A DNA stretch of 64,000 bases from a virus: positions 88,666 to 152,665 of the IMG/VR virus record IMGVR_UViG_3300028283_000002, one strand, 5' to 3'. Below the pieces are notes generated by a model. The model was not told where the DNA came from and searched no databases. It saw only the letters and a list, made by a program, of their open reading frames with translations. The position numbers and the translations under genes were made by a program. How positions within the stretch are numbered: position 1 is the first letter of the stretch; each line of letters starts with the position of its first letter. Shown here in pieces: positions 9,869 to 60,411 of this stretch.

Positions 9869-10935
9869 CCACTCTTATAGCAATGTGGACACCTACTGAT
9901 ATTGGTAGAACTATACAGTCTTTAATTACAAATAACAAGTTAATGTATTGGGCTATTTTTGTCATGTTGAGTAATGTAAATACTGGCGATAAACAATTAA
10001 TGAAAAAAAGAAAAGAATTAGTAGAAAAGAAAATGAAAGAACTCAGAGATATGTTCGCTGAGAAAAATTATACTAGTCATTATTACGTTGTTTTGGGTGA
10101 TAAAAAAGATATTAAATCAGTACTGGATAAACTTAAAGCAGATGATCTTATTACTGATGCAAATATTATTGACGTTGCTGATGTAACATTGGTTGATTTT
10201 TCAAAAACTTATAACATTAAAGATCCAGATAAATCTGTAGATCCTTATGGCGAAGAAGATTGGGCTGATAAAGATGTTGATGAGAGAGAGGCTTTACAAA
10301 TATCAAACGCTGCAAAGAATTTAGAAGATAAATATAAAGTCAATTTCAGAAAAGTAGAAGACGTGGTAGATTATATGGATAATAAATGGGAAGATTTTTC
10401 TGTAGCCAAGAAATTAACAAAATTTGGTAAAACTACATCTAAAATGTGGGACAGAGAATATCAAAGAGGTATAGATAGAGTAAAACAAAGAAGAGAAGAA
10501 AGAAATAGACCACCAGAACCAGTCTTCTTCGATGATGAAGATGATATTCCAGATGATCCTATGGGTGATTATTATTTTAATGAAATGCCAAACGATTTAG
10601 AATATAATAAAGTGCCTTTGACTGACGCCGAAGCAAAAAATTATAATGTCGGTGACGTAATACCAATTGGAGGTGAAGACTATACTATAACTAGAATAGA
10701 TCCAGAAGAAGATGAAGCCTTCGCATATCCAAACAGATTATTACCAAATAATTGGTTAGAAGAAGAAAGAGCTAAAGGCAACGTAAAAGATTTACCAGAT
10801 GGTAATCGTGACGGTCATAATTATCCAAGAGTAGCTGTTAAAATTGAACCACCAAAGAAAAGATTTATGGATAGATTCAAGGACTTTGTAGTTCCTGGAT
10901 TCGATGTAAAACCACCAGAAGTAATGGAAAGATAA
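9844..10935 (+). CDS. Membrane-anchored acidic protein with DPYGEEDW motif
   Basis: A GTG start at 9844 gives 363 residues, but the true N-terminus is probably the tagged frame at 9698. Two hydrophobic segments lie at residues 2-15 (GSLFIFIATLIAMW) and about 33-45 (LMYWAIFVMLSNV). A helical charged region follows, and DPYGEEDW at 10240-10263 is the octapeptide shared with six other proteins here. The C-terminal half is acidic and Pro/Asp-rich. It is first in a tight rightward operon of tagged proteins. Function unknown; I infer a virion-internal or envelope-inserting protein. Confidence 0.65.
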   Translation: MGSLFIFIATLIAMWTPTDIGRTIQSLITNNKLMYWAIFVMLSNVNTGDKQLMKKRKELVEKKMKELRDMFAEKNYTSHYYVVLGDKKDIKSVLDKLKADDLITDANIIDVADVTLVDFSKTYNIKDPDKSVDPYGEEDWADKDVDEREALQISNAAKNLEDKYKVNFRKVEDVVDYMDNKWEDFSVAKKLTKFGKTTSKMWDREYQRGIDRVKQRREERNRPPEPVFFDDEDDIPDDPMGDYYFNEMPNDLEYNKVPLTDAEAKNYNVGDVIPIGGEDYTITRIDPEEDEAFAYPNRLLPNNWLEEERAKGNVKDLPDGNRDGHNYPRVAVKIEPPKKRFMDRFKDFVVPGFDVKPPEVMER

Positions 10936-10936
10936 T

Positions 10937-11305
10937 ATGATAAAAGATTTTCAATTATTTATCGAAGCGATTCGTTGGTACGAAAAAGGAAAACTAGGCG
11001 AAAAAGAAGTTAAAGAAGTCACAGAAGAAGTCTTTAGAGTCGGTGATAACGTTGGGCCTATAGATGCATTTAATATTCATAAATGGCACGATGGATACGA
11101 AGTAAAACACCCAGCTCCAGGTGAAAACGGATTTTGGGAAGAATCTAGGGCTTTTAGCAATGAGCCATTAAATCAATATTGGGAAGTTAATGCGGTCTGT
11201 GATTTTAACAGAGATGGATACGATGGTCAATTAATTCAATTAACAGATAAATACCCTTGGTACCAAGCAATGGGTTTTAAAAAAGTAAATAAATATGGCG
11301 AATAA
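10937..11305 (+). CDS. Small tagged protein, 122 aa
   Basis: The N-terminus MIKDFQLFIEAIRWYEKGK closely resembles the T4 internal-protein targeting peptide (M-K-T-Y-Q-E-F-I-A-E-A). After it comes a Trp-rich, acidic domain (VGDNVGPIDAFNIHKWHDGY and later NQYWEVNAVCDFNRDGYDG) that may be a small beta barrel. It starts 1 nt after the previous stop and overlaps the next gene by 11 nt. The tag predicts packaging in the head; the cargo function is unknown. Confidence 0.65.
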   Translation: MIKDFQLFIEAIRWYEKGKLGEKEVKEVTEEVFRVGDNVGPIDAFNIHKWHDGYEVKHPAPGENGFWEESRAFSNEPLNQYWEVNAVCDFNRDGYDGQLIQLTDKYPWYQAMGFKKVNKYGE

Positions 11306-11966
11306 AATATCAATTAGAGACATAGAAGCAGCCATCAAAGAATCAATGAAAGGCAGTGAAATACAATTTTCAGATTCAGTCTACGAAGAAAAATCTGGCA
11401 AACTTCGCCTCATAATCTTCTTCAATAAACTTTTTACTAGCACCAACGTGGTCCTCTATACTAAACTTCTTTTCGAAGTTGATAAAAATAAAGAATATCT
11501 TGTAGAAAATAGCAGTGGGCAAAATTTCTTTAAATATTTATATGATATTAATTGCCAATATAATATGAAAATTATTGATGATATAAATGATTTTAAGACA
11601 CAATGGAAGAAGATTATAGATAGTAATGAATTTGGTCCAAATTTAAAAGTGTTATCTGAGTTTATAAAGCAACCTTCATTCATCGTTAATGAGTGGTTTA
11701 ATAAGAATGATGTGAAGGATATATCTATGACTGGGTTTAAATATGAACCTAAGATGAAGATAATGCCTTGTAAGATATTATCGTTTCATTTTGTAATGAA
11801 TGTGAATAATTCGGAAGAAGTGGAATTATTTATAAAGAAAGAGGGTAAGAATGATTTTATGTTAACTTTTACTATTAATGGTAAGAAAGTAGATGTAGAG
11901 AAACCAGATTTAAGTGCTTTGGTGCAAACTATTGGAGAAACTCTAAAAGATAATATGGGACAATGA
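11295..11966 (+). CDS. Hypothetical protein, 223 aa
   Basis: Begins MANKISIRDIEAAIKESMKG, without the F/Y-x-x-F tag. It has mixed alpha/beta composition, no membrane segment and no recognised motif. The C-terminal helix (PDLSALVQTIGETLKDNM) may support oligomerisation. It lies inside the tagged-protein operon, overlapping the genes on both sides (11 nt and 4 nt), so it is probably co-expressed and functionally linked to them. Confidence 0.6.
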   Translation: MANKISIRDIEAAIKESMKGSEIQFSDSVYEEKSGKLRLIIFFNKLFTSTNVVLYTKLLFEVDKNKEYLVENSSGQNFFKYLYDINCQYNMKIIDDINDFKTQWKKIIDSNEFGPNLKVLSEFIKQPSFIVNEWFNKNDVKDISMTGFKYEPKMKIMPCKILSFHFVMNVNNSEEVELFIKKEGKNDFMLTFTINGKKVDVEKPDLSALVQTIGETLKDNMGQ

Positions 11967-12379
11967 TTAAGTTATTTGAAGCATATAAAAAGAATTTTTC
12001 ATTTGGACATGAAATTGAAAATTTCAAAGATTTCTACGTTGTTGAAAACGTTGGTAAATTATTTGATATGTGCGATAAGAATGGCAACGAAGTTGTAAGA
12101 TACATGACTCTTCTATGTGATAGTAATAAAGTGAAAATAGAAAAGCAAGACGGTAACATTATAAAATTTAGAGGGTACACTTCAACTGATAATATGTCTT
12201 CTGCTTTTTTAAAAACCTTCTGGGACGTGAATATTGAAAAATGGAGATATATAATTTATTTAGTTGATAGTAAAGGTGGGGAATATAGAACATCTGTAAA
12301 CGATAAAATAACCTTTTATAGATCAAAGGGAATAATATCACCTTTAGATCCATATGGAGAGGAGGTTTGGGATGATTAA
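11963..12379 (+). CDS. Small tagged protein with C-terminal DPYGEEVW motif, 138 aa
   Basis: The N-terminus MIKLFEAYKKNFSFG carries an L-F-E tripeptide in the recurring tag. The C-terminus ends PLDPYGEEVWDD, with the shared octapeptide at 12347-12370 only two residues from the stop. The middle is a beta-rich domain (VKIEKQDGNIIKFRGYTST). The codons for GEE (GGAGAGGAGG) also form an unusually strong ribosome-binding site for the next gene, whose ATG overlaps this gene by 8 nt. A head-packaged protein is inferred. Confidence 0.7.
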   Translation: MIKLFEAYKKNFSFGHEIENFKDFYVVENVGKLFDMCDKNGNEVVRYMTLLCDSNKVKIEKQDGNIIKFRGYTSTDNMSSAFLKTFWDVNIEKWRYIIYLVDSKGGEYRTSVNDKITFYRSKGIISPLDPYGEEVWDD

Positions 12380-12794
12380 AAATTACCTAACATATATAAG
12401 AGAAAATGTTGAATTTGATGAACCCCCTATTAATTTAAAGGATTTCACTCCTAAATACGTTTTTGATTATTATAAAGAAAAATATTGTGAAAAAGATAAG
12501 ATGTTCAGGTACTGTGAATGGACTAAAATGTATGTAGATTTCATATTAAAAACATTAGAAATAGATAAATATATTATATTTAATGGTAATTCGCCAGGTG
12601 AAAGTAATGAACTACATAGTGGTTATATTAAAAAAGTTTTACAACCAGATAATCAAAAAGCTATAATTCATATTATTTTAGATGACGGTATTGAGTACGG
12701 TATGTACCCAGGTGAAACGGTTAGAATATTTGATAAAGAACCAGAAAAGATATATAGAGAAGAAGATCCGTACGGTGAAGAAGAATGGTATTAA
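12372..12794 (+). CDS. Small tagged protein with C-terminal DPYGEEEW motif, 140 aa
   Basis: I chose the ATG at 12372, just after the strong GGAGAGGAGG site, rather than a longer frame from 12354. It then starts MIKNYLTYIRENVEFDE, a good match to the tag with I-R-E. It ends EEDPYGEEEWY with the octapeptide at the extreme C-terminus (12765-12788). The central domain is beta-rich (KAIIHIILDDGIEYGMYPGE). Together with the preceding gene it forms a pair with the same layout (tag, small domain, DPYGEE-x-W), and no other obvious similarity. Confidence 0.7.
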   Translation: MIKNYLTYIRENVEFDEPPINLKDFTPKYVFDYYKEKYCEKDKMFRYCEWTKMYVDFILKTLEIDKYIIFNGNSPGESNELHSGYIKKVLQPDNQKAIIHIILDDGIEYGMYPGETVRIFDKEPEKIYREEDPYGEEEWY

Positions 12795-12804
12795 GCAGAG
12801 CCAA

Positions 12805-12816
12805 TTTTAATATATA
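12805..12816 (+). promoter_or_regulatory. Promoter-like TTTTAATATATA box
   Basis: Exact TTTTAATATATA, 21 nt before the ATG of the baseplate wedge gene. This is the clearest copy of the recurring box before a late structural gene. Confidence 0.6.
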
Positions 12817-12837
12817 AAAGAAAAAAGACATCCGCAA

Positions 12838-14676
12838 ATGCAAATAATAAATTTCATAGAACTCCAATATGATAAACTTAGCGAACAAATAAAAAACTGG
12901 TTGCAAGTAACTTATTCTAAATCAGATATAAACTTCAGCGAAGCGTCAACATACGGACAAATACTTAAAGTTGATAAAGAACTTTTTACTCACAATATTA
13001 TTTATAATAAGAACTCTGTTAATCAAATTGCTATAGACTACGCTACTGATGATAGAATCATAGGTAATTTAGCTCGTATAAGTGGACATAATCCAACACG
13101 TCCTATATCAGCAACTGGGACAATCAATCTCAAACTTAAAACAGGTATTGATATTGAAAGCCAAATTGGTGGTTCGAAAATCAAAATAAATAATAGAACT
13201 CTCCTTAAAAATAAATCAAATAGCCTTTATTATAACATAGTTCTAGGTACAGATTACGTTCTATACGACGTTACAGCAGACATGACTATTCAACTTAACG
13301 TTATACAAGGTCAATACGAATCACAACAATTCACAGGACAAGGAGTTAAAAATCAATCATTTAGTGTTAATGTTGATGGTATAACCAACATTGAGAATTT
13401 CAATTTTGCTGTATTTTATAATGGGTTGTTGTTAAGTCCTAAGGTTGGTATGGTTGATATGTTACCTAATGAATTTGCTTTCTTTTCAAGAACTGGTTTT
13501 CAAGGTGGTTTAGATATTTATTTTGGAACTGGTGATTTTGGATTTGTGCCAGGTATTGGTTCTATAATTGAGTGTAGATATTTATTATCAGACGGTAAGA
13601 ATGGTAATATTCTTAATAATAAAGTAAATGATTTCACATTTATTGATTCAGTATATGACGGTAACGGTGATATATTATCAATGGAAACTTTGTTTGATAT
13701 AACAGTAGAAAATGATATAACTTTTGGTGCAGATAAAGAGAACAAAGTTTTCACAAAGAATGTTGTACCTTTTGTATCTAGAAATTTTGTTCTAGCTACA
13801 CCTGATCAATTTATTTACACATTAAAAAAATTAAATATGTTTTCGCTTATCAATGCTTATAATACTCTCGATGAGAACAACGTAAATAATAACACTTATA
13901 TTGATCAATTTATCACTGCTACATTTGGACAGAACGTTCCAAACAGGGATAAAATAAGAGAAAGTTTAAAAGACTTTTTTCCTAACATTTATGATAACGT
14001 TATTTATTTATATTTAATACCAAACGTTAAAAATTATTTTGTTAGTGATTATAATTACTTCACAATACCTTTTGACGCTTTTTATCTTGATGCTAACGAA
14101 AAGAAAAAAGTAATGGATTATCTAAGACAAATGGGAACTTTATCTATTACAACCAATGTTAAGATAGTTGATCCTGTTATCTCAAGATATGTTATAAATG
14201 TTTACGTAAGAAGATTTAGTGACGACTTTGAAGATAATATTAGAAATAAAATAATTGGTATTGTATCTGATTATTTTATCAATGTAAATAGATATGATAG
14301 AATAGTTAAAGCTGATTTAATTACAAAAATAAAAGAGCAAGTGTCTGGCGTTGATAGTGTTAACTTAGATTTTATTTGTAAAAAGAACGAAGATTATCAC
14401 AGAGATCGTAATATTAATGTAGTTAACGCAAATGTAGCGAACACGAACGATCCGACTTTGTTAGCTCCTCCGACCCCAGTGAATCCAGATAGGTATGACC
14501 CAAATAAAGTTTTGGGATTAGATCCAGTTCAAGGAGATATAGTAGCTGATAAGACTGAGTTTGCTGTATTAAGAGGTGGTTGGTACGATAGAAATGGCAT
14601 TTATTATAACGATGTGCCAATTATAAATGGTTTATCTACAATAAATATTGTTTGGACTGGTGTAAGTGTAAAATAA
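12838..14676 (+). CDS. Baseplate wedge protein, gp6/J-like
   Basis: 612 residues starting MQIINFIELQYDKLSEQIKNW. The overall layout fits T4 gp6/baseplate J-type proteins. The N-terminal helical segment is followed by the conserved 'not yet folded at start, then IDYATDDRIIGNLARISGHNP' region near residues 60-85. Beta domains form the middle. The C-terminal part (VVDPVISRYVINVYVRRFSDDF, then IRNKIIGIVSDYFINVNRYDRIVKADLITKIKEQVSGVDSV) has the typical helix-strand ending. It would form the inner wedge ring of the baseplate. It is followed by a tagged small gene rather than other baseplate genes, showing the scattered order of this genome. Confidence 0.8.
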   Translation: MQIINFIELQYDKLSEQIKNWLQVTYSKSDINFSEASTYGQILKVDKELFTHNIIYNKNSVNQIAIDYATDDRIIGNLARISGHNPTRPISATGTINLKLKTGIDIESQIGGSKIKINNRTLLKNKSNSLYYNIVLGTDYVLYDVTADMTIQLNVIQGQYESQQFTGQGVKNQSFSVNVDGITNIENFNFAVFYNGLLLSPKVGMVDMLPNEFAFFSRTGFQGGLDIYFGTGDFGFVPGIGSIIECRYLLSDGKNGNILNNKVNDFTFIDSVYDGNGDILSMETLFDITVENDITFGADKENKVFTKNVVPFVSRNFVLATPDQFIYTLKKLNMFSLINAYNTLDENNVNNNTYIDQFITATFGQNVPNRDKIRESLKDFFPNIYDNVIYLYLIPNVKNYFVSDYNYFTIPFDAFYLDANEKKKVMDYLRQMGTLSITTNVKIVDPVISRYVINVYVRRFSDDFEDNIRNKIIGIVSDYFINVNRYDRIVKADLITKIKEQVSGVDSVNLDFICKKNEDYHRDRNINVVNANVANTNDPTLLAPPTPVNPDRYDPNKVLGLDPVQGDIVADKTEFAVLRGGWYDRNGIYYNDVPIINGLSTINIVWTGVSVK

Positions 14677-14689
14677 AATAGAATTAAAA

Positions 14690-14701
14690 TTTTATATATA
14701 G
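14690..14701 (+). promoter_or_regulatory. Promoter box immediately before ATG (leaderless candidate)
   Basis: TTTTATATATAG ends 4-5 nt before the ATG at 14706. A promoter core at this distance would place the transcription start at or next to the start codon. Confidence 0.45.
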
Positions 14702-14705
14702 CTTT

Positions 14706-15215
14706 ATGTTGAAAATATATCAAGAATTCTTAGCAGTAAATGAAGAGATGGCAGCATTTGATCCGTCAGATAGATTAAGATGGGCTGTTCATGAAATTAT
14801 GATGCGTCTTAAAGACGGTGCTATTATAAAATTTGCTGATATGAGTAAAGTTTTAAAATCTGATTTTAAAATTGATATCTCAGAAGGAATACTTAAAGAT
14901 ATATTCGACTCGTGGGACAGATACAACGATCCAGATTATAGTTTCTTTAAAAAAGAAGATAAAAACTGGATGGATGCTTTTTGTTTCCAAGGACACGTTA
15001 AACGTAAATGTAGAGATAAACAAAGTTTCGGTAAACATAGAAAGAAAGAAGTAACATATTCAACTGGCAACGCATATGGTTATTGGCGAGGTAATAAATG
15101 GATACCATATAACACTGGTGTAAGTAGAACAGTAAAGGGCACAACTGCTTTTGATGATCTAGAGGATGATAGATGGACGAACCCTTACGGTAAGGGTGTT
15201 TATTATGGTGATTAA
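14706..15215 (+). CDS. Small tagged protein, 169 aa, degenerate NPYGKGVYY C-terminus
   Basis: The N-terminus MLKIYQEFLAVNEEMAAFD is very close to the T4 internal-protein tag (Y-Q-E-F-I/L-A). The C-terminus WTNPYGKGVYYGD looks like a diverged DPYGEE-x-W motif. The middle contains a helical region (DRLRWAVHEIMMRLKDG), a Cys/His/Lys/Arg-rich stretch (FCFQGHVKRKCRDKQSFGKH) that might bind nucleic acid or zinc, and a Gly/Tyr/Trp-rich segment. A packaged head protein is inferred; the biochemical role is unknown. Confidence 0.65.
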   Translation: MLKIYQEFLAVNEEMAAFDPSDRLRWAVHEIMMRLKDGAIIKFADMSKVLKSDFKIDISEGILKDIFDSWDRYNDPDYSFFKKEDKNWMDAFCFQGHVKRKCRDKQSFGKHRKKEVTYSTGNAYGYWRGNKWIPYNTGVSRTVKGTTAFDDLEDDRWTNPYGKGVYYGD

Positions 15216-15227
15216 AAAATTTATAAA

Positions 15228-15809
15228 ATGGTGAAGAAATATAAGCAATTTCTGTTTGAATGGGGATACGGAGGTGAAGGTGGTGCAGCTTCTAAAGATC
15301 CTATTAAAGTTAGAAGTGCTATGCTTACAGAAATAGATCCATTAGAAGCCAAAGAAGAAGAAGAAGAGGAAGAAGATAATAGTGATATTCCTATCCTATC
15401 AGATACTAACGAATCAGTTGATAATGAAGAATTAGATCCTTACGGGGAAGAAGTTTGGGACGGTGATTTACCGAGTTATAGTTATAGAGAATGGAATGAC
15501 GGTATATATAGTTTCTTAAAACAATTAAAAAATACATTCATAGATGAATGTCTTGCTGGTCTAGAAAGAGTAGAGCAAAAAGACGCGGAAGAATGGTTAG
15601 ATGATATATTGAATGAAATAGAAGACGGTGATTACGATTTTAGTTCAGATGATATTAGAGCCATACGTGACGATATAGACGATTTACTTGAATTATGTGT
15701 GGATAATGAAGATGATGATAGAGTCGAAGGTCCTGATCCAGATGAGTACTACGATAGAAAACGTGAAGAAGAATACGAAAGATTCGAAAGGGAGTACGAG
15801 GATAAATAA
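15228..15809 (+). CDS. Acidic tagged protein with internal DPYGEEVW, 193 aa
   Basis: The N-terminus MVKKYKQFLFEWGYGGEGG fits the tag (F-L-F-E). An acidic run (KEEEEEEEDNSD) precedes DPYGEEVWDGDLPSYSYREW (octapeptide at 15435-15458). The C-terminal half is a helical, strongly acidic domain ending in mixed-charge helices (EEEYERFEREYEDK). Its arrangement (tag, acidic linker, octapeptide, domain) parallels the 9844 gene. It follows the previous gene by 12 nt. Confidence 0.65.
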   Translation: MVKKYKQFLFEWGYGGEGGAASKDPIKVRSAMLTEIDPLEAKEEEEEEEDNSDIPILSDTNESVDNEELDPYGEEVWDGDLPSYSYREWNDGIYSFLKQLKNTFIDECLAGLERVEQKDAEEWLDDILNEIEDGDYDFSSDDIRAIRDDIDDLLELCVDNEDDDRVEGPDPDEYYDRKREEEYERFEREYEDK

Positions 15810-15820
15810 TATATACACGT

Positions 15821-16078
15821 ATGATAGAAAGAGAATCCCAAATAAAAGAGTTGTTCGACCTTAAACATAGAAAAGATAATGAAATACATCAACATTTCGA
15901 TTACGAGAACGAGTTGATGAATAAGATGATGCCAGAGTACGCCAGAAGAAATGATACAGTAAATGAATTCGTTTTAAGAATTCAAAAATTATTTGTTTGG
16001 GGAATTGAAGCTCAATTAACAATTCGTAATTTTTATAACTATAGCGTGAATAAGTACTACTCCCGTCATTCAAATTAA
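15821..16078 (+). CDS. Hypothetical protein, 85 aa
   Basis: Helical, His- and Asn-rich small protein starting MIERESQIKELFDLKHRKD, with an aromatic C-terminal helix (WGIEAQLTIRNFYNYSVNKYY). It lies 11 nt after the acidic tagged gene, so it is probably the last gene of that unit. A promoter-like box and the homing endonuclease follow. Not recognised. Confidence 0.55.
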   Translation: MIERESQIKELFDLKHRKDNEIHQHFDYENELMNKMMPEYARRNDTVNEFVLRIQKLFVWGIEAQLTIRNFYNYSVNKYYSRHSN

Positions 16079-16140: not shown

Positions 16141-17700
16141 ATGATATTATCTGAAGAAGTTAAAATAAGATTAAATTATAAAAATAAAGAACATTTTAAA
16201 AATTTAGGTTATGATATTGATAATAAGTTTATCAATGTCAGGGTTGAACATTTAAATAAAGGTTCTCATGTTATAGTCAAAATTAAATGTGATGAATGTG
16301 AAATAGAAAAAGAAATACAATATTTTGCTTATATAAAATATTTATCAAGAAGTAAGGATAGTAAATATCGTTGTGGTAAATGTAATCAAATAGATAGAAA
16401 AAGCACCAATATTGAAAGATATGGAGAAGATTCTCCTATAAAAATCAAAGAGTTTAGAGATAATAGAAATAAAACCATTATTGATAAATATGGAACTGAT
16501 CACCCTTGCAAAAATAAAGATGTTAAAAATAAGATATTTAATACTAATTTAGAAAGATATGGAGTAAAATATGTCCCTTTAAATGAAGAAATTCGAGATA
16601 AAATTATAAAAACAAATTATATAAAATATGGGGGAGTTAGTAATTTATCTTCGCGAATAGAAAGAGATAAAATAGAAGATATAATGCTAGATAGATACGG
16701 GTTCAAATATTCTTTACAAATAAAATCTATAAGAGACGTTATAGTTGAAAGAGGATTAATTACAAGAAAAAATAAAATCAAAGATGATTATAAGAATATA
16801 ATAGACATTATAGGAACAGATTATACTGTCAAATGTGATTGTGGCAATGATCATGATTTTGTTATAAATTCTTATAATTTTTATCAAAGAATAAAATATG
16901 GTACTACTATATGTACAATATGTAATCCGATTGATAAACATATTTCTGGTTTGGAAATAGATTTTGTTAATTTCATTAAGGATGAGTATAGAGGAGATAT
17001 ATTGATTAATAATAGAGATATAATACCACCACAAGAAATTGATGTTTATTTTCCAGATTTAAAAGTTGGTTTCGAGTTTAATGGATTATATTGGCATAGT
17101 GATGAATATAAGGAAATTGAATATCATAAAAACAAAATAGAAATTGCCAATAAAAAAGGCATTAAACTCTTACATGTTTATGATGATGATTGGAGATATA
17201 AGAAAGATATAATAAAAAATGATATAAGAAGAATAATAAATCCGAATAAAAGTGACATAGAAGAAATATTTGAAGTGAATAATAGTATAGCTGAAATATA
17301 TAACTACAATAATAATTTATACGGGTATTCAACGTCAAGTATAAATATATGTGGAACAAAAGACAATAATGTTGTTAGTATGATGAACATTAAAAAGAGT
17401 AAGAACGATTATGAGATAGTGAGATTGACAGGCGATGATAATTTTGATCAATTATTTAAATATTTTCTAAATAAATATAAACCAAAGAGGGTGGTTGGAT
17501 TTGTAAATAAAGATTGGAGTATTTATAATTTTTATGAAAGAAATGACTTCATGGTGGAAAATGAAACAGAACCAGATTTTCACTATATAATAGATAATAA
17601 AAGGATGAAAAATATTGAAGGAACATTATTCGAAAATCAAATACAGAAAATATATGATTCTGGTAAAATATTTTACAAATTGGAAATACGAGACAAATAA
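16141..17700 (+). CDS. Homing endonuclease, Vsr-like EDxHD type
   Basis: 519 residues. The N-terminal module (MILSEEVKIRLNYKNKEHFK) is related to the nuclease at 2900. CxxC zinc-binding (KIKCDECEIEKE; YRCGKCNQ) and several YG-x-D/Y DNA-binding repeats follow. A second zinc segment (KCDCGNDHDF ... CTICNPIDKH) leads into the catalytic part: EIDVYFPDLKVGFEFNGLYW, then HS, YHKNK and LLHVYDDDW. This is the E-D-x-H-D-like arrangement known in nucleases of fractured, split-intein phage genes. The C-terminal domain has LYGYSTSSINICG-type strands. It is a free-standing selfish gene with its own promoter box upstream. Confidence 0.8.
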   Translation: MILSEEVKIRLNYKNKEHFKNLGYDIDNKFINVRVEHLNKGSHVIVKIKCDECEIEKEIQYFAYIKYLSRSKDSKYRCGKCNQIDRKSTNIERYGEDSPIKIKEFRDNRNKTIIDKYGTDHPCKNKDVKNKIFNTNLERYGVKYVPLNEEIRDKIIKTNYIKYGGVSNLSSRIERDKIEDIMLDRYGFKYSLQIKSIRDVIVERGLITRKNKIKDDYKNIIDIIGTDYTVKCDCGNDHDFVINSYNFYQRIKYGTTICTICNPIDKHISGLEIDFVNFIKDEYRGDILINNRDIIPPQEIDVYFPDLKVGFEFNGLYWHSDEYKEIEYHKNKIEIANKKGIKLLHVYDDDWRYKKDIIKNDIRRIINPNKSDIEEIFEVNNSIAEIYNYNNNLYGYSTSSINICGTKDNNVVSMMNIKKSKNDYEIVRLTGDDNFDQLFKYFLNKYKPKRVVGFVNKDWSIYNFYERNDFMVENETEPDFHYIIDNKRMKNIEGTLFENQIQKIYDSGKIFYKLEIRDK

Positions 17701-17732
17701 TATTCTATATATAAAAACAAAAGTTAAACCTA

Positions 17733-18119
17733 ATGGTTGAAGAAATAAAAGACGATAATATACATTTTTACGGCAAAGTAGCAAAAATGCCTAAAAATTC
17801 TAAAGCTGCCCAATCTTATACCTTCTTGGAGAAAATAAAAATATCCAAACAGAAGTTGTGGTATATCTTGATCGAAAAGCAAGATAACGAACTTCAAATG
17901 ATCAAGTATAATAATAAAAAGGGATTCAATTTGAGGGCTTTCGTCGATGGTTTAAAAAATTATTACGCTACTAACGAATCTATGAAACAATATATAGATA
18001 GATTAGAAATAGATGGAAACGATAAATTCTCTATCATAAAGAATATTCCCAACGTTGAAATAGACGGGAAGAAATTGATTTCTATCTTAGCGGAAGACCT
18101 TATCAAATTACTTAAATAA
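17733..18119 (+). CDS. Hypothetical protein, paralogue of the 54505-55302 C-terminal domain
   Basis: 128 residues. Residues 30-128 (KISKQKLWYILIEKQDNELQ ... DGNDKFSIIKNIPNVEIDGK) align by eye with the C-terminal domain of the protein at 54505 (LLSKEDYWYLLTEKQGEIHV ... SGNNNFSVVTNIPQNIHKQ). The shared pattern is W-Y-x-L-x-E-K-Q, then I-x-x-N-N/D, F-S-x-x-x-N-I-P. This is therefore a stand-alone copy of a domain that is fused to a Pro-rich linker elsewhere. The function is unknown; a virion or head-assembly role would fit the other copy's neighbours. Confidence 0.6.
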   Translation: MVEEIKDDNIHFYGKVAKMPKNSKAAQSYTFLEKIKISKQKLWYILIEKQDNELQMIKYNNKKGFNLRAFVDGLKNYYATNESMKQYIDRLEIDGNDKFSIIKNIPNVEIDGKKLISILAEDLIKLLK

Positions 18120-18121
18120 TG

Positions 18122-18931
18122 TTAGGATTTAATTCTTATAAATTCACAGTTTAGAAGAGACTTTATTTCCATCTCTTTTATGATGTCCTTCGATTTTAAT
18201 TTTCCCATTCCATCGTAGTGATGTTTTTCATCATATTCATACGCGACATTATTTTCAGCATCATAACCGTCTAACCAATATCCCAATTCATTTATATGAA
18301 ATTCCCCACCATTTTCAGCATGTTGTATATAACACCCATTTATTTTCATTAAATTGTTAAAATATTGACACGCTATTGGATTATAGTTTGGTATAATTTG
18401 ACCAAATTTGGATTCTATCTCTTTAATTCTAGATAACCTCATTTTCATTTTACTTTCGGTTGTATGAAATTGACCTGTTTTAGTCGATGATATTTTTTCC
18501 TTATGTTCGTTAGTTAAAATTTTTCCTTTATTTCCTTTTGATATTTTCAATTTTGTTTCATCAGACACTTTTCTCCCTTTTTGAGATTTTGACATTTTCT
18601 TTCTTGTTTCTTCTGACGCTTTTTTCCCAAAATTAGGAGACATTTCACCAGTTAATTGTGTTAATTTACCTATTAAAGACATCTTTTTCTTATATTCCAA
18701 AGATTTTTTCTTTCCAGTTTGAGATTTTGACATTTTTAAAAGTGTTTCATTTGAAAATTTTCTACCTTTCAATAATCCACTTATTCTATTTTTAGATTCA
18801 ATTGATAAAGTTTTACCAATATGAGAGCAGGATAAACATTTTCTATTTTTCAATTCAGCTATCGTATAACTCGATTTTCTAGAATAACTAATTTTTTTTC
18901 CGCACATTGGACATTTTCTTATGAGATTCAT
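18122..18931 (-). CDS. Homing endonuclease with NUMOD3 repeats and C-terminal nuclease domain
   Basis: 269 residues. The N-terminal zinc ribbon (CPMCGKKISYSR ... KCLSCSH) is followed by about five NUMOD3-type repeats of the form SEETRKKMSKSQKGRK, which contact DNA in intron-associated nucleases. The C-terminal region (GYWLDGYDAENNVAYEYDEK, then HHYDGMGKLKSKD) resembles a small Vsr/DUF559-like nuclease (D...E-Y-D-E-K-H-H). It lies downstream of, and on the same strand as, the large glycosyltransferase gene. Its termination codon is next to the convergent 17733 gene. Confidence 0.75.
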   Translation of the reverse strand: MNLIRKCPMCGKKISYSRKSSYTIAELKNRKCLSCSHIGKTLSIESKNRISGLLKGRKFSNETLLKMSKSQTGKKKSLEYKKKMSLIGKLTQLTGEMSPNFGKKASEETRKKMSKSQKGRKVSDETKLKISKGNKGKILTNEHKEKISSTKTGQFHTTESKMKMRLSRIKEIESKFGQIIPNYNPIACQYFNNLMKINGCYIQHAENGGEFHINELGYWLDGYDAENNVAYEYDEKHHYDGMGKLKSKDIIKEMEIKSLLNCEFIRIKS

Positions 18932-18955
18932 AATTATATATATTAATAATTAAAT

Positions 18956-21121
18956 CTAAATTTCGTTTAAAAGTGGTTTTATCTTATTTATAACATCTTC
19001 TGGTGTGATAGTTTTACTACACTCGAATTGTCTATCAGTCCCCTTATGTGCTGGACACCAATCCCAATCCCCTCTATCAAATTCGTATCTCAAATCGTTA
19101 AAACAACCGTTACAAACTTTTTCATTTATAACTCTTACACAATTTTCTTGAAATTCGCAGAATGGTTTACTAAATCCACTGATCATAACAACTTTCTTAC
19201 CGACAGCCCAAGCTACCCATGCTAGACCACTACCAATAGTTACCATAAACTCAGCGTGTCTTATTTGATTTATTCTTCTCTCAATAGATTGATCACCTGT
19301 CTCATTTATAATATTTTTTAAAACAGTTCCTTGTTTACTAATAATAACAACTTTAAGTCCTTGTTTATTAAGATAATCTACAACAGTTTGCCACCCTTTT
19401 GGGTAATGCCAATGTTTAGCGTTGGCTGTAGAATGCTCTGCTATAACCACATATTTATCTTTATAAGGTCTTTCTTTGTTAGGAATAGCAATTTTAGGTA
19501 TAATCTCTTTATATGGTAATCCAAGTATATCAGTAATAGTTTGTTGTAAAGGTACAATTCTATAATCATGTGGTTGTTGATTTCTATCTCCTCCCCAAGG
19601 TGGTGAAAACCAACCTATGTTATAAGTGGCGTATAAATTGTCTGGAGTAGTATCTGGCTTTATGAAGATAATATTCCCGTAAACGCTCTCAAATAAATGA
19701 TTTTGATGAGTAGAGCAATACATTATACATTCATGCTTCTTTCTAAATTCTTCTACAAATGGTATCCAGGCAATTGAGTCACCAAGAGAACTACTATGAA
19801 AAGCTATTAAAATATTTTTACCTTTTGGTTCAAAATCAAATTGTTGTGTATCGTCGCCGCTCACTTTTATTCTCCATTTTCTATAATAAGATGTATTAGG
19901 TTTTGCCCATCTATTAGAAGTCATATCTAATCCGTAAACTGATTTATCAGACCCTTCTGTCATGTCTATAAAATCAACATGGATGTTCTTCTCTGTTAAA
20001 CATTTCATTTCGAAATGTGCCCCGCTAACTCCATCTCTACCATTAAAATGAACGTTATAAGTCATTTTTGGATCGGTATGTGGTTTGGCTATAACTTCAC
20101 TATTAGAGTATGCTTCTATAACATGTTGACGCATGTCTTCACGTGTGAAATTATTTTTAACAGAAATAACAAAATTATAAAAATCATTTAGTTCTTTAAC
20201 TACAACACTCCAATCATATAATTTAGTCGTTTCGTGTACAGCGTCTTTGAAGGCATCGTAATTATTAATTACATTCTTTATTTTACTGGTAACATCAATT
20301 GTATTCCTTATACATTTTTCTAATCCAAGTAATGGTCTCTTACCGTCGTAAGTTCCAACAACTGGTAATCCACAAGCCATAGCCTCAACCAGTGTTAAAT
20401 TAGGATGACCAGCCTCTAATTCAGACGGATGCATGAATATAGTATGATCGTTATAAATATCAACTAATTCTGCTTCACTTGGATCTTTAATAAAATTAAT
20501 TTTCTTGTATTCTAAAAGATCTGGATTAGCGTTAAAAAAGTTTTTATTGTTGTCTGGACCAACTATTGTTATCTCTAAATCTAACTCTTTTGCAGCCTCA
20601 ATAGCGTAACGAAAACCTTTTCTATCAACTGATGGTTCACTAGCGTAACCATTATTAGCCACACAAAGTAATTTATGTTTTTCGTGTTTAATACCTTTAT
20701 CGTAATATATTGAAGTATCTGCACCGTGTTGTATATAAAACAATTTATCAGTTGTATCGAAATAGTCAACAAGAAAATCAGCGTAAGTTATTGAAGCTAC
20801 TGACTTTTTCATAGCCAATAAGTTAGTAGAGTAAAGAGTAGATAGTTTACCGTACCTCACAACGTGATGATCGTGTAAAGAAAAGACGTAAGGAATATTT
20901 CTATCGTTCCACGCCTCAACAGCTTGATTAGCAGCGTGAAAATGTACAATATCGTATTTTAATTTACCGTGTTCGTCATACAGTTCCCAAGGAAAAACTA
21001 CGTCAACTGTATGTCCAAGTTTTTCTAGTTGGAGTTTATAATTCCAAATGACTTTTTCTATTGCCCCCCAACTCTTGGGTGGTATTTCAATGGCACCGAG
21101 ATTTATTTGTGCTATTTTCAT
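18956..21121 (-). CDS. Fused glycosyltransferase: GT4 plus TibC/Aah-like heptosyltransferase
   Basis: 721 residues, two enzymes in one chain. Residues 1 to about 320 are GT-B family 4: MKIAQINLGAIEIPPKSWGA at the start, DIVHFHAA, and the donor-site E-x7-E motif in SELEAGHPNLTLVEAMACGL. The C-terminal half (ILIAFHSSSLGDSIAWIPF, EHSTANAKHWHYPKGWQ, IGSGLAWVAWAVGKKVVMI) is GT9-like. It carries the four-cysteine pattern C-N-G-C ... D-W-D-W-C-P ... F-E-C-S-K of autotransporter heptosyltransferases (TibC/Aah), which hold iron or zinc. It is coupled to the small Cys-rich gene upstream (ATGA). Likely role: glycosylating a virion or host surface protein; the substrate is unknown. Confidence 0.8.
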   Translation of the reverse strand: MKIAQINLGAIEIPPKSWGAIEKVIWNYKLQLEKLGHTVDVVFPWELYDEHGKLKYDIVHFHAANQAVEAWNDRNIPYVFSLHDHHVVRYGKLSTLYSTNLLAMKKSVASITYADFLVDYFDTTDKLFYIQHGADTSIYYDKGIKHEKHKLLCVANNGYASEPSVDRKGFRYAIEAAKELDLEITIVGPDNNKNFFNANPDLLEYKKINFIKDPSEAELVDIYNDHTIFMHPSELEAGHPNLTLVEAMACGLPVVGTYDGKRPLLGLEKCIRNTIDVTSKIKNVINNYDAFKDAVHETTKLYDWSVVVKELNDFYNFVISVKNNFTREDMRQHVIEAYSNSEVIAKPHTDPKMTYNVHFNGRDGVSGAHFEMKCLTEKNIHVDFIDMTEGSDKSVYGLDMTSNRWAKPNTSYYRKWRIKVSGDDTQQFDFEPKGKNILIAFHSSSLGDSIAWIPFVEEFRKKHECIMYCSTHQNHLFESVYGNIIFIKPDTTPDNLYATYNIGWFSPPWGGDRNQQPHDYRIVPLQQTITDILGLPYKEIIPKIAIPNKERPYKDKYVVIAEHSTANAKHWHYPKGWQTVVDYLNKQGLKVVIISKQGTVLKNIINETGDQSIERRINQIRHAEFMVTIGSGLAWVAWAVGKKVVMISGFSKPFCEFQENCVRVINEKVCNGCFNDLRYEFDRGDWDWCPAHKGTDRQFECSKTITPEDVINKIKPLLNEI

Positions 21122-21349: not shown

Positions 21350-24300
21350 TCACTCCACTTCGGTGTCCCTTTCTGTGAATAATCCATTTTCCACAATATC
21401 TTTATAGTTATTCATATTTACATTGAATTTTTGTACATCTAAAACAGTATTTGTTGTAGAATCTAAAAATGTCGCTGTTATATTATAATTATCTGTATTA
21501 GACATAATTACTTTTCTCAAGTAATAACTTCTTTCTTTTACGTAGTGAGTACTAGTTTCAATTTTTCCGTTATTTTCAAATAAGAATTCTATTCTTCTAT
21601 TATCTTTATTATTGGAAGAATTAAACCAAACAATAAAACTATTACCTTGATTTTTAACTGGTAATATTGCTAAATATTCAACTCCCGAAAATATATTAAT
21701 ATTTGAATTATTGAATAATTTTTCTTCGTTAGTTTCTTCAATTATTAGATTTTTGGAGTGCTTTGATAATTTCATATAGAAATAATTTTCCAAGAAATTA
21801 TGTGAACCGTTATTTTCGCATTCTGAATTATAATCCCAAGGAGTTCTTATTACTTTATCAAATACACTAGTGTAAAATTCAGTATTCACTATGAAAAATA
21901 CACTCTTATATAATTTCATATCTCCTTCGTTATAAGACATAAAATATCCTTTTTTATTCTCTTTATCCATCCTATCACATAATTTGTTAATAGTATCTAT
22001 ATTAGATTGATTAAGAATAAAATCGTAACTCACACTTATAACTTTATCGTAACCTGCGGATTTAGCGAATTTTATAGAATTCTCAATGTTATTAAAAACT
22101 GTTAACGATTGATTAAGATCTGAATTCTTTTGTAATCTATCAAGTCTTATTTCCACTTTACCTTGTTGTATAGTTGACCAATATAAATTATATAAAGAGT
22201 GACCAATTAAAGGATTATAAGCGTCATAAATGTAATAATCTACTTTATCTTGTAAATTTTTATTAACTGGATAATGAGAAGCCAATATAATTTTATTACC
22301 AGTCGATTTTAAACTGTCTATGCATAATTCAGTAGTGTCCTCTTTTATCTTAGTGTCTGGATAAGTGAGTACAAGATATATATTTCCTTTTGGTTCAGAT
22401 ACAGGTGATTGAGTCTCAGTAATTATTTCTTTAGATTCTATATCAATTATTTTTGGTTTGGAGTCTTTTGTTAATCTAAGTTCTTTTACGAATAAGAGTT
22501 GATCCTTTATCATATAATCAGCACTAAATCCAATAAAATTTGGATCTGTTTTATAGTAATTTACCCCAGGTGAAACCCAGTTACAATAACCACCGTTATT
22601 GAAAACTAAATTTTCAGCAGTATAAACAATATCACCTGTTTCTATATTCCTAATCAAAACATTCAATTTAACGTCTTTGAGAGGTCCGTTATAAGGTAGA
22701 TATAATCTATTCTCTTCTGGTTTAAAATCTAAATCAAAATCATCTTTAACTGGATATATCGATGTGTCTTTATTGTCATCAATGAGTTCATTTATTTCTT
22801 TCCTAACTTTATCTGAGTCTGGAACTATATCTAACTTTAAAGTTTTTGTAAATAGAAAAGTTCCGTTATGACTCACATCGAAAGAAAATTCTTTATATTT
22901 TTGATGTCCATATATCATTACCCAAATTGGATTATAAGGAGATAAAGAAGACTTAGCAGTATAAATATTTTTAGATTCACCAGCATTAACAACAATTGAG
23001 AAATCCGCTATATCCTGTTGGAAAAAATCACTTAAACAAAAATAAAATTTCTGGTCTTCTTTGTTATACTCAATTATAATATCATCTGGATTTTTATCCT
23101 TTAACAACGTATCAACATTTTTTTTTAAAAAATGTTCAACATTTTCGCCCTGAATAGTTGAAACACCCTCTATTTGAGTGGTCAATCTTGGAGCAATTGC
23201 TTTAGTTCTCCTTTTAAACATATCATTGAACATCAAATCTGAAACGTCCCATAATATAGTATCGTAAGATCTTTTTATATAATCAAAAGCAAATTTTGGA
23301 AACATAATTGACTGAATACCAATTATTTTATTTGTTATATACATCCAATCATTTATATCACCGTGTTTATCAGATACCATTTCTCCTGTTCTTAGATTTC
23401 TATTATCACCAAAAGACATGTAATATATTCCTCTTTCGTTTATATGATCACACGATTGGAACACTTTATCTACAAATTCTTCGATTGGCACAGCCAATTT
23501 ACAATCAGACTCAAATATCATAAGAAAATCTACGTCATCTGTTGCCTCTGTTAAAACAGCTTTTTTAAATGACTGGTAATTTCCGTAATGTGGTCCCTTT
23601 AATGAGTAAGCACCAATTCTACCAACGTCATTTGGCCTGGCGCAAAATTCTCTTGGTGGAGTTTCAGTATATCTCTGATTAATATGTTGAACGTAATCTA
23701 TGCCGTAATCTTTTAATTTTTCTAATTGTTTTATAGAATCGCTTTTTCTATTATCTTCTTCCAATAAAAGATGTACTGCTCTAATTTTATATTTTCTATC
23801 GGTCTTAATATCTCTAGGAAACAAAAAATTCTTAACTAAACCAGCGTCAATATCTTCGTTACCATTAAGATAATGTATTGTTTCTTCTGTATCATACTTC
23901 CTATTATAAACGTCAAGTGGGAATAAGAACTGATGTATTTGATGCTCTAAAGCTTCTTTAATTACAAGTGGATTTAATTCTTTATTCCAACGAAATCCTC
24001 TTGACGTAAAAAGAAATAAATCACAAGCGTCTAACCAATCATCAATATCATCTCTTTCACCGAGAATATTACAATTTTTTGGTTTTATCTTCATTAAAGG
24101 TCTCCAATAATCTTGGAAGTTATCCGCCTGATTACCAATAAAATGGAATTGGATTTTTTCGTTTTTAAGTTTCCTGGCTATTTCGAAGGAGTAGGCTTGA
24201 TTTTTTCTTGGTGTGAACAGACCAACGTTAACAACGTGTTTAAGTTTTGGATCTAGACCGAGTTTTTTCATTGCCTCAGCTTTTCTTTCGGGTGTTGGTA

Positions 24301-30917: not shown

Positions 30918-30956
30918 ACAAAAAACCCCAACAAAAATTGCTGGGGTTTCTTTTTT
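30918..30956. terminator. Bidirectional intrinsic terminator
   Basis: AAACCCCA (30923-30930) pairs with TGGGGTTT (30942-30949), with A-rich and T-rich flanks. It ends the 30955-31170 gene on the minus strand. Confidence 0.85.
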
Positions 30957-31170
30957 ACATCCACTTTTTACGTTTCTCATCAAACTCTTTTTCAAGTTTG
31001 GTTAAACTGTAACTCCATGTTTCAGGAAAATCAAGTAACCTGTACTTTTGATTCCTTACTTCTTGGTGAATGTTTCTAGGTTCTGCTTCAATAAAGTAAT
31101 ATTGAGCACGGTAACCTCTTCGGTTTACCATATCGACTCTCCAAAGTCGAAGTTTATCATTTGTTTTCAT
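30955..31170 (-). CDS. Hypothetical basic protein, 71 aa
   Basis: Small, positively charged, Trp/Tyr/Arg-rich protein starting MKTNDKLRLWRVDMVNRRGY and ending in a Lys/Arg helix (LTKLEKEFDEKRKKWM). No known motif. Its start codon lies inside an 11-bp hairpin (31168-31194), so translation may be regulated. Terminators on its 3' side make it a single-gene unit. Confidence 0.55.
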   Translation of the reverse strand: MKTNDKLRLWRVDMVNRRGYRAQYYFIEAEPRNIHQEVRNQKYRLLDFPETWSYSLTKLEKEFDEKRKKWM

Positions 31171-31194
31171 AACTCAAGATCTACTTGAGTTATG
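31168..31194 (-). promoter_or_regulatory. Hairpin occluding a start codon
   Basis: CATAACTCAAG (31168-31178) and CTTGAGTTATG (31184-31194) form a perfect 11-bp stem with a 5-nt loop. On the minus strand, the last three bases of the stem are the ATG of the 71-residue gene. It may be an operator or an RNA structure that controls initiation. Confidence 0.6.
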
Positions 31195-31254
31195 ATGAGT
31201 TATATTTTTTCATATTACTATATATACAATATTTTTAGTGTAGTTTGGACAATT

Positions 31255-47029: not shown

Positions 47030-47284
47030 ATGGGAACGATCGTCAAGACATACGAAGAGTGGGGATTTTTTAAAAAGGAATTAACCCCAGATGAAGAATA
47101 TCAAAAACAAAAGAAACAAGCTTTAAGAGATAAGGTAAAACCAGGAAACGCCCCAGAAGTAGAACCAGGTGAAGAAGAAGATGACGATAAGCCATCTACT
47201 AAAAAAGTTAACGATCAAGATGATTACGGTGAAGAATTTTGGGAGGATGAAGCAGGAGATAAAAATAGAAAATCACCTTGTTAA
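47030..47284 (+). CDS. Small tagged protein with DDYGEEFW motif, 84 aa
   Basis: The N-terminus MGTIVKTYEEWGFFKKELTP carries the tag (K-T-Y-E-E-W). KELTPDEEYQKQ is shared with the gene at 47684 (KELTPDEEYRRQ), so the two are paralogues. A Pro/Glu/Asp/Lys-rich middle leads to DDYGEEFWED (47219-47242), a variant of DPYGEE-x-W, near the C-terminus. It is disordered in appearance, with no catalytic motif. It is first in a rightward operon (47030-49295) behind a TTTTTATATATAG box; head-packaged protein inferred. Confidence 0.65.
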   Translation: MGTIVKTYEEWGFFKKELTPDEEYQKQKKQALRDKVKPGNAPEVEPGEEEDDDKPSTKKVNDQDDYGEEFWEDEAGDKNRKSPC

Positions 47285-47896: not shown

Positions 47897-48756
47897 ACAA
47901 CGAAATAGCATTTTTTGATTTAGATGGAACCTTGTGGAATATCAAGAATGACGACATATGGATAATAGATAAAGAAAAACCATTTAGACCAGTTATCATT
48001 CTTAATCATCTTGATTTTTCCTTGATCAAAGCAGGAAGATATAGAAAAGATGAATTACCATTAGATTACAACGGTCAAATATATTACATTAGTAAAGATT
48101 TATTTGAAAAAATTAAAAAGAAATCTGGAAGTGAAAATATCGAAAGATTCGGTATTTCTTTTATACCTATGCTTAGAAAAGAAATTCTCGATAAAAGAGA
48201 AGTTGATATACTTAGCCATAACATTGAGCATCTTAGGTATAATAAGTTCGTAGATATTGGTTTACTTACAGCTAGATCAAATCAAAGGAACCATTCAGAT
48301 CTTGTTAATAAACTTAGATTAGAATTAAAGAAAATAGGAATAGAAATAAGTAAAATATTCTTTGTTGGTAGTGGAGTTCATAGTGGAGTAGATCCTAAAT
48401 TGAAAAGTTTCGTTCTACTGGAACATCTTTTAGGACTTAAAATTAAAGATGGTAGATTTATATCTGTTAAACAAGACTGGTATAAGAAAGTTAGTTTCTA
48501 CGACGACGATAGTAAAAACATTGATTACGCCAACGATATTCAAGATTGTTTTGAAGAACTTTTAAGAAAGACAGACGACGAACTTTTTAGAATTATAATA
48601 GATAGAATTGAGACATTCGAATTAACACTTGATACTTATCTTGTAAGTGATAATGAAGTAAATAGATTTAAGAAGAGTTCTGTAACGTTAAGACCACCTT
48701 TAAGATTTCCTATAAAAGAAAGTCTAAAAAATTATAATGATTTTTTAAGGAAATGA
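47893..48756 (+). CDS. HAD-superfamily hydrolase
   Basis: 287 residues. HAD motif I is FFDLDGTLW at residues 7-15 (nucleophile and acid/base Asp), motif II is LLTARSN (Thr), a Lys follows, and motif IV is SFYDDDSKN. A hydrophilic insertion of about 80 residues lies between motifs I and II (a cap). The C-terminus (RFPIKESLKNYNDFLRK) resembles the tag pattern but at the wrong end. Substrate unknown: nucleotide, sugar phosphate or polynucleotide 3'-phosphate. It is overlapped by coupled genes on both sides. Confidence 0.75.
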   Translation: MNNEIAFFDLDGTLWNIKNDDIWIIDKEKPFRPVIILNHLDFSLIKAGRYRKDELPLDYNGQIYYISKDLFEKIKKKSGSENIERFGISFIPMLRKEILDKREVDILSHNIEHLRYNKFVDIGLLTARSNQRNHSDLVNKLRLELKKIGIEISKIFFVGSGVHSGVDPKLKSFVLLEHLLGLKIKDGRFISVKQDWYKKVSFYDDDSKNIDYANDIQDCFEELLRKTDDELFRIIIDRIETFELTLDTYLVSDNEVNRFKKSSVTLRPPLRFPIKESLKNYNDFLRK

Positions 48757-55360: not shown

Positions 55361-55380
55361 TATTATTTTTTTATTTTATA

Positions 55381-59213: not shown

Positions 59214-59302
59214 TTATAAGGTTTTATTTTACTCTATATATTAAATTTTGAAAACTAAATCACAAAAAAATAATATAATTTAAAAATAAGTGAATAAGTA
59301 GC

Positions 59303-59638: not shown

Positions 59639-59654
59639 TAGGTTCAAAAAGAAG

Positions 59655-59774
59655 ATGGATAAATACAATAAACCTTTGACTAAAAAGAAATTAGTCAAAA
59701 AGAAATTAATGCCTCTTGTTTATGGAGGTATTCCAAAACCACCAATTCCTAAAATTAGAACAGTTGGTGAGTAA
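59655..59774 (+). CDS. Very small basic protein, 39 aa
   Basis: Starts MDKYNKPLTKKKLVKKKLMP and ends GGIPKPPIPKIRTVGE. It is highly basic with Pro-rich tail and may bind nucleic acid. It lies between two genes with close spacing (16 nt on each side). The longer frame from 59580 overlaps the previous gene and is less likely. Moderately confident that it is real. Confidence 0.45.
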   Translation: MDKYNKPLTKKKLVKKKLMPLVYGGIPKPPIPKIRTVGE

Positions 59775-59790
59775 AAAGTAATTGACGAAC

Positions 59791-60411
59791 ATGATTAATT
59801 TTATAGCAAACAAACTAAATGATAGATATAAAAGGCTTTTAGAAAGAGATATAGAAAGACAAATAGCTGAAGACGAAAGAAAAAAAGCTGAAGAAGAAAG
59901 ATTAGCAAATATACCACTAAATATTCCAGATAATAAATGGTGGATTAGCGATAACCCAATAGAAGAAGATAAGTGGTACGACGGTGTATTCTCAAGTGGT
60001 ACCACAATACCATCTAGTAAATGGTCAAACGGAACTTGGTTAGGAGTGTCTGGATCATCTGGTTACGGAGTATCAGGGAGCGCAGGAGTATCAGGCAGTG
60101 CTGGTGTATCAGGAACAAGAGGATTAAGTGGTTCATCTGGATTTTGTGGGACTTCCAGTTATTCCGATCCAGGTATAAAGTACGCTGAATATTTAGCCGA
60201 ACAAATTAATAAATCGATAAATTATCAAGAATATATAGCAGAACAACTTGATAAAAGTATCCAATATAGTGAATATGTGGCAGAACATCTTGATGTAACA
60301 AATTACACAAATTGGAAGAACGGTTACGCAGCACACACTAAACCAAAAAAAGAAGTTAAAAGGGTTTATAGTGAAGAAGATCCTTACGGAGAAGAAGATT
60401 GGTCAGTATGA
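59791..60411 (+). CDS. Collagen-like/three-repeat protein with C-terminal DPYGEEDW
   Basis: About 206 residues from the ATG at 59791 (MINFIANKLNDRYKRLLERD). Order: basic/acidic helix, WYDGVFSSGTT spike-type repeat (as in the 57150 adhesin), Gly-x-y tract (GVSGSAGVSGSAGVSG) and three repeats of the form YxEYxAEQxDKSI (KYAEYLAEQINKSIN; YQEYIAEQLDKSIQ; YSEYVAEHLD). A basic linker then leads to SEEDPYGEEDWSV at the extreme C-terminus (octapeptide 60379-60402). It links fibre-type modules with the DPYGEE-x-W set. The GGAGAAGAAG codons act as ribosome-binding site for the next gene. Confidence 0.7.
   Translation: MINFIANKLNDRYKRLLERDIERQIAEDERKKAEEERLANIPLNIPDNKWWISDNPIEEDKWYDGVFSSGTTIPSSKWSNGTWLGVSGSSGYGVSGSAGVSGSAGVSGTRGLSGSSGFCGTSSYSDPGIKYAEYLAEQINKSINYQEYIAEQLDKSIQYSEYVAEHLDVTNYTNWKNGYAAHTKPKKEVKRVYSEEDPYGEEDWSV

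Follow-up and report, generated by a model that had tools for sequence, protein, structure and literature searches.

DPYGEE-x-W, a conserved octapeptide on otherwise unrelated accessory proteins of one giant phage clade

Short peptides that direct proteins to one enzyme, hub or compartment are known from several systems. PEP-CTERM, GlyGly-CTERM and LPXTG are sorting tags that a specialised enzyme recognises, while the C-terminal tail of the single-stranded DNA-binding protein (SSB) and the clamp-binding QLxLF are bacterial docking motifs in which a short acidic or aromatic peptide binds one hub. Cargo is loaded into animal vaults by the INT domain of PARP4, a folded domain of more than 100 residues, and into encapsulins by targeting peptides. 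The internal proteins of phage T4 have been reviewed as a highly diverse defence set with only the capsid-targeting sequence (CTS) in common (PMC3012670). The subject of this study is the octapeptide DPYGEE-x-W, present in seven copies in a 64,000-nucleotide stretch of viral DNA (positions 88,666 to 152,665 of IMG/VR record IMGVR_UViG_3300028283_000002), hereafter called the window. A preliminary description made from the letters of the window alone had proposed that the carriers are otherwise unrelated and share a binding partner, for example a head, portal or packaging protein. Computational follow-up of this proposal revealed extreme conservation of the motif, at the level of the peptide, in about 90 unrelated accessory proteins of a single phage clade.

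The window belongs to a virus record of 152,665 bases, a genome fragment from a near relative of the uncultured phage LR756503 (735,411 bases); the tail-sheath protein of the record is 95% identical to those of LR756501 and LR756503, and 42-45% identical to those of LR756504 and LR756502. Judging from its length, LR756503 is presumably the 735-kb genome reported as the largest then known, in a study that assigned the largest genomes to the Mahaphage clade and predicted Bacteroidetes hosts (PMC7162821). LR756503 yielded 103 motif sites in back-translated searches and the record 36, with none for the reversed pattern used as control. No site was found in six related phages (LR756504, LR756502, LR756500, LR745206, Lak-A2 and Flavobacterium phage MaF61) and no match in 20 shuffled proteomes. 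An equal frequency of the motif in unrelated genomes, the outcome which the preliminary description had named as speaking against it, was not observed. DPYGEE is by a wide margin the commonest hexapeptide of LR756503 and occurs in 91 of its 1,035 mechanically called open reading frames (ORFs). At least 80 stretches of a viral collection matched, nearly all of them, among the matches listed, from relatives of LR756503, and several held 5-15 copies within a few kilobases. With the fetched contigs included, 322 copies on 271 carriers were counted, falling into 145 families; all family counts given here depend on phmmer thresholds. The more distant members follow a wider consensus, DP[YFL][GNDS]EExW, usually succeeded by acidic residues.

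In 84,980 cellular genomes, searched for the variant with D or N at position x, 17 contigs matched. Fourteen were enolases, in which IISIEDPYGEEDW belongs to the protein itself, and three were short Bacteroidetes-binned contigs with an ORF ending in PKRIFSEIDPYGEEDWEN, like the phage copies. The segment IISIEDPYGEEDW of Lactobacillales enolases (L219-L235) is close to the motif with its flank (RVFSELDPYGEEDW), which is probably a coincidence. No description of the motif was found in the literature searched, the sole text match to DPYGEE being a paper on yeast peptides, and no meaningful match was obtained among solved structures with a similar peptide.

After masking of the motif, the 88 carriers of LR756503 fell into 87 families (E 1e-3). 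Homology of the carriers over their full length, the second finding that would have spoken against the proposal, was therefore not observed, and a conserved short core in otherwise unrelated proteins, as expected of a short linear motif, is what the data display. Comparison of the record with LR756503 yielded 198 orthologue pairs with a median identity of 91%. The seven fixed codons of the motif contained 36 synonymous and no amino-acid changes, against 930 and 703, respectively, over the remaining codons of these carriers (p=2.5e-9), and non-carriers showed 7,020 synonymous and 2,789 non-synonymous changes. The carriers thus evolve faster than other proteins while the motif remains invariant. 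Codon usage also varies between copies, as noted before, and the conclusion then drawn from it, that selection acts on the peptide, holds. Two window carriers retain the motif in homologues with only 32% and 40% overall identity.

The motif could still be the recognisable core of a small domain shared by ordinary homology. Between a few carriers of the window there is weak full-length similarity (25-29%), and the flank ahead of the motif has a mild consensus, but the number of families, the varied placement of the motif, which accompanies enzymes, membrane helices or coiled coils, and its observed gain and loss through gene fusion (an HNH protein ends in the motif in one of two genomes and lacks it in the other) make this very improbable. 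Good support for the proposal of a short linear motif and one shared partner comes from the unrelated carriers, the invariant core, the varied positions and the retention of the peptide in the diverged homologues.

A function of the underlying DNA or RNA, as ribosome-binding site or spreading cassette, with the peptide as by-product, was also considered. The DNA of C-terminal copies doubles as a purine-rich stretch ahead of the next ATG (in the window at 12347-12379 and 60379-60402, in LR756503 at 501262 and 44461), GAG/GGA codons are favoured in these copies (14/42 versus 1/63 of the others, p=6e-6), and at some junctions a long run of DNA is identical and extends into the following ATG; the junction GATCCATATGGAGAGGAGGnnTGGGATGATTAA is common to several places. 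A Shine-Dalgarno signal was seen at 4 of 10 starts behind the motif and at 20 of 701 starts elsewhere. The context of the next start codon accounts for some of the codon choice, not for the motif. Every change in the fixed codons is synonymous, no start codon follows the internal and N-terminal copies, and other starts have little Shine-Dalgarno signal. This reading is largely refuted by the synonymous-only pattern, was rejected, and is the least probable of those considered.

The position of the motif varies as first described. In LR756503 it is C-terminal in 40 of the 88 carriers, lies within 30 residues of the start in 17 and is internal in the remainder, and some carriers hold up to four copies, the highest number counted in any single protein being seven; by sequence, the copies are terminal or lie in acidic linkers. 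Many carriers begin with a second element, an N-terminal tag which fits the CTS of T4: a pattern written for this analysis, which misses T4 IPI, picks up IPII and IPIII (MKTYQEFIAEA) and occurs on 136 of 1,035 LR756503 proteins, versus about 0.5% at internal positions. It is found on 37 of the 88 carriers and on 99 of the 947 other proteins (p=9e-13), and the association is strongest where the copy is not C-terminal (27/48). The N-terminal tag, seen in the preliminary description on most of its carriers, is thus enriched on carriers, and about half of the carriers are devoid of it.

The CTS of T4 (IPI-IPIII, Alt) is similar in being one short peptide common to many unrelated, fast-evolving phage proteins, and these giant-phage carriers often have a CTS at the N-terminus as well. 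However, DPYGEExW differs from MKTYQEFIAE and does not fit M-K-x-[YF]-x-x-F-[IL]-x-E, the CTS being a separate element on some carriers; it is not bound to the position behind the start methionine, is present in several copies per protein and on far more carriers, and occurs without CTS on half of them. With PEP-CTERM, GlyGly-CTERM and LPXTG it shares the presence of one short terminal signature on dozens of unrelated proteins per genome. Instead of a membrane helix and basic tail, it is followed by few, mostly acidic, residues before the stop; moreover it is not confined to the C-terminus, its carriers are mostly soluble, and no sorting enzyme for it was found. The SSB tail and QLxLF are likewise short acidic/aromatic peptides, but with a different sequence and scale, since DPYGEE-x-W is carried by about a tenth of the proteins of the phage with a nearly invariant seven-residue core.

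We favour, with moderate confidence, the explanation that DPYGEE-x-W is a portable docking peptide on about 90 lineage-specific accessory proteins, recognized by one conserved cytosolic partner, preferably a phage protein of the head or internal core. That there is one partner, that the phage encodes it and that it is located in the head are three steps that we infer. The peptide would occupy the C-terminus, linkers or the segment immediately following the CTS; its D-P-aromatic-[G/N/D] stretch resembles a beta-turn, by which Y/F/L and W could come to lie on the same face, surrounded by acidic residues. One conserved partner would bind it in the cytosol, the favoured candidate being a protein of the assembling head or of the internal-protein core, and a fast-evolving arsenal like the internal proteins of T4 could thereby be collected in one place. 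Many carriers are probably packaged in the virion. Carriers are depleted among the genes shared with LR756502 (5/88 versus 174/947, p=0.0017), and as accessory, fast-evolving proteins they have the same character as the T4 internal proteins. As to an exchange of CTS for motif between LR756503 and LR756502 orthologues, just five orthologues were at hand to judge.

Several observations weigh against a partner in the head. Besides the half of the carriers without CTS, LR756502 and LR756504 possess many CTS proteins and no motif, so packaging as such does not need the motif. Of the 50 CTS-less carriers nine look membrane-bound, which is about the normal rate of the genome and odd for virion contents, while CTS proteins are rarely membrane-like (4/145); the motif thus also serves proteins that could hardly be packaged. 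In keeping with docking in the cytosol, the motif of the clearest membrane carriers is expected from their sequences to lie on the cytosolic side, and such carriers would keep the partner at the membrane. The partner may also be encoded by the host instead of the phage. A partner was sought among genes that LR756503 and LR756500 have in common and that are missing in LR756502 and in the sampled part of LR756504. Of the 34 genes obtained, only the vault gene described below was attractive, and no partner was established. The head, portal or packaging partner first suggested is therefore only partly supported: the enrichment of the T4-like CTS and of head and tail protein pieces among carriers speaks for it, the CTS-less and membrane-like carriers and the CTS-rich relatives without motif against it. 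Genes with only the motif cluster together (26 versus 4 expected) and show no excess beside genes with only the CTS (7 versus 5.5 expected). The set of CTS-like starts in LR756502 is unusually large, with about 100 proteins, e.g. at 10332-79818 (MKHLKxYNES, MKYLKxYKIFES).

If the docking reading is correct, one of the largest known phages gives a common address to about a tenth of its proteins, nearly all of them otherwise unannotated. Identification of the partner would assign them to one process and show how the accessory proteome of giant phages is organized. The motif offers a direct handle for this, as one synthetic peptide (e.g. RVFSELDPYGEENWDD) could fish out the partner.

Among the recognisable carriers is a protein of 1,233 residues that combines a deaminase domain with a CCA-adding enzyme and has four copies between or before the domains; a second nucleotidyltransferase, an acetyltransferase and a methyltransferase also belong here. 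Segments derived from the portal, protease-scaffold, capsid or sheath protein of the phage itself are present in 8 of 88 carriers versus 11 of 937 non-carriers (p=7e-5). The scrambled or truncated copies that carry the motif in LR756503 derive from the portal (48028-48549), the prohead protease (11314-11850), the capsid (three) and the sheath (two). This could indicate bait-and-tag adaptors: variable domains, including fragments taken from the portal, capsid, protease, sheath and polymerase of the phage, would bind sensors of host defence, and the motif would recruit one phage effector or sequester the complex. The internal proteins of T-even phages, a diverse anti-defence set united only by the CTS (PMC3012670), would be a precedent. 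On the other hand, the 11 similar fragments are untagged, many recognisable carriers are enzymes (the CCA-adding enzyme with deaminase, the acetyltransferase, the methyltransferase) and the defence target is hypothetical, and we regard such adaptors as improbable. In all, about 19 small proteins were noticed that reproduce the phage's portal, protease-scaffold, capsid and sheath proteins in truncated or mosaic form, some joining pieces from at least two of them. Further copies in LR756503 are located at 145891-146127, 552409-552918, 497197-498567, 553796-554236, 554941-555297, 276342-276932 and 542326-542892, among others, and one lies in the record that contains the window (23891-25213).

The large carriers with copies between domains are also what a degradation or processing signal might produce, with a protease recognising the motif or the prohead protease cleaving at it. 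The copies are often preceded by a hydrophobic-S-E/D stretch, which is similar to the prohead cleavage sites of T4. This stretch is however not universal (E at -2 in 28/102), for which reason a prohead cleavage site ahead of the motif was rejected. Cleavage at extreme C-terminal copies would release almost nothing, and the use of N-terminal, linker and C-terminal positions is ill-suited to a terminal degron. Processing is accordingly given a still lower probability than the adaptors.

LR756503 encodes a homologue of the major vault protein (MVP) at 17182-19608 on the minus strand (L105), with matches to MVP_shoulder (E=1e-28) and to the PDB major vault protein (E=6e-20). A homologue with 84% identity (L238) was modelled with moderate confidence (predicted local distance difference test, pLDDT, 64; predicted template modelling score 0.33), and its top 12 Foldseek matches were all vault proteins, with E down to 8e-27. 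A gene for the putative shell protein is found in LR756503 and in a motif-bearing contig. In 50,697 phage records vault homologues occurred only in LR756501/LR756503 and LR756500, LR756501 equalling LR756503 in length and encoding an identical vault protein. A profile search of the viral collection gave at least 73 vault loci, many on very large contigs (L237, L238-L311). No published description of phage vault proteins was found in the literature searched.

Other end tags were encountered as well, the tag classes in other phages being defined after looking. LR756500 has the C-terminal tag NADDFG[FLM] on ten proteins of five families, most of them with CTS (11601-15898, 180972, 198758, 313382, 322613 and 331856), and five of the ten are situated 5-9 kb from its vault gene. 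Endings of the type K[FY]N[IL] occur on mostly unrelated proteins of two large contigs with a vault gene (L312-L331), 34 of 235 in G025, 25 of these also with CTS, and 27 of 449 in G023. Given NADDFG, K[FY]N[IL] and the helical RxxKLxxIL tags, peptide addresses may be common among giant phages and may have been missed because they fall beneath what homology searches can detect. The helical ending R[DTK]xK[LI]xx[IL]L was found in LR756502, LR756504 and more weakly LR756503, in 9-28 families. Its signature R[DTK]xK[LI][DNE]x[ILM]L, on unrelated small proteins of LR756502 (25), LR756504 and LR756503 (216191-223500), is independent of both vault and CTS.

By a cargo reading, the peptide loads accessory proteins into a vault-like shell made by the phage. 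The MVP homologue, the separate tags of the other vault-bearing phages and a partial co-occurrence of tag and vault (three tag-bearing lineages with a vault gene, five untagged, motif-less relatives without one) are consistent with it. Against it, the link was spotted post hoc among the 34 genes with the same presence pattern. Three more phages with a vault gene were then checked prospectively: a C-terminal tag was missing in two of them, and the third had an ambiguous AFKLxW ending, possibly a small domain; with two of three failing, the vault link is a lead and not a result. Moreover, the helical class is borne by two vault-less phages, and the carrier with four copies between enzyme domains and the membrane carriers would be hard to encapsulate. 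Encapsulin cargo peptides and vault INT resemble the motif as a common element on diverse proteins docking inside a shell, but the motif is often internal and short where INT is folded, and an interaction of shell and peptide is hypothetical here. We consider cargo loading into such a shell unlikely. The fuller proposal, in which giant phages build an MVP-homologue shell and DPYGEExW is the lineage-specific loading peptide for dozens of accessory proteins, is a little less likely again, on a level with the adaptors.

A six-frame scan placed all seven copies of the window exactly where the preliminary description had them, each in frame. DPYGEEDW at 10240-10263 is an internal copy in the plus-strand ORF 9844-10935, and it is retained in a homologue with 32% overall identity (L085). 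This carrier is probably split by a frameshift: its N-terminal part, with the CTS-like tag MNNVITTYDDFLNE, would be encoded in a different frame by the plus-strand ORF at 9698-9868, judging from the LR756503 orthologue (572243-573487), which begins with MNNVITTYDEFLNE and occupies a single frame. The ORF at 11963-12379 (plus) starts with MIKLFEAY and ends in DPYGEEVWDD, the motif copy DPYGEEVW (12347-12370) being C-terminal and its DNA GGAGAGGAG directly preceding the ATG of the next gene. That gene (12372-12794, plus) has the CTS-like start MIKNYLTYIRE, overlapping the preceding stop, and ends in DPYGEEEWY with the C-terminal copy DPYGEEEW at 12765-12788. The plus-strand ORF at 15228-15809 begins with the CTS-like MVKKYKQFLFE and contains DPYGEEVW (15435-15458) internally within an acidic stretch, where it is kept in a 40% identical homologue (L056).

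On the minus strand, the ORF at 33231-33593 has the CTS-like MIKKFKMFDS immediately ahead of an N-terminal DPYGEENW (33528-33551). DDYGEEFW (47219-47242, plus) is a rare variant in the ORF at 47030-47284, which starts with the CTS-like MGTIVKTYEEWGF, and the LR756503 orthologue has the same variant. The last carrier (59782-60411, plus) lacks a CTS, combines YxEYxAExxDKSI repeats, as in the protease-scaffold protein of the phage, with collagen-like GSSG repeats, and ends with the C-terminal copy DPYGEEDW (60379-60402). NPYGKGVY, formerly listed as a degenerate copy at 15215, is situated at 15180-15203 on the plus strand and is not regarded as a copy, the homologue (L056, about half identical) ending in NPLYGGEYYGD. 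A model of one window carrier was of low confidence throughout (pLDDT 40), with its tail as coil. Outside the window, at 30931-31244 of the same record, a small membrane protein has motif DNA just beyond its stop codon; the LR756503 orthologue ends in the motif, and the difference is probably due to a frameshift or sequencing error.

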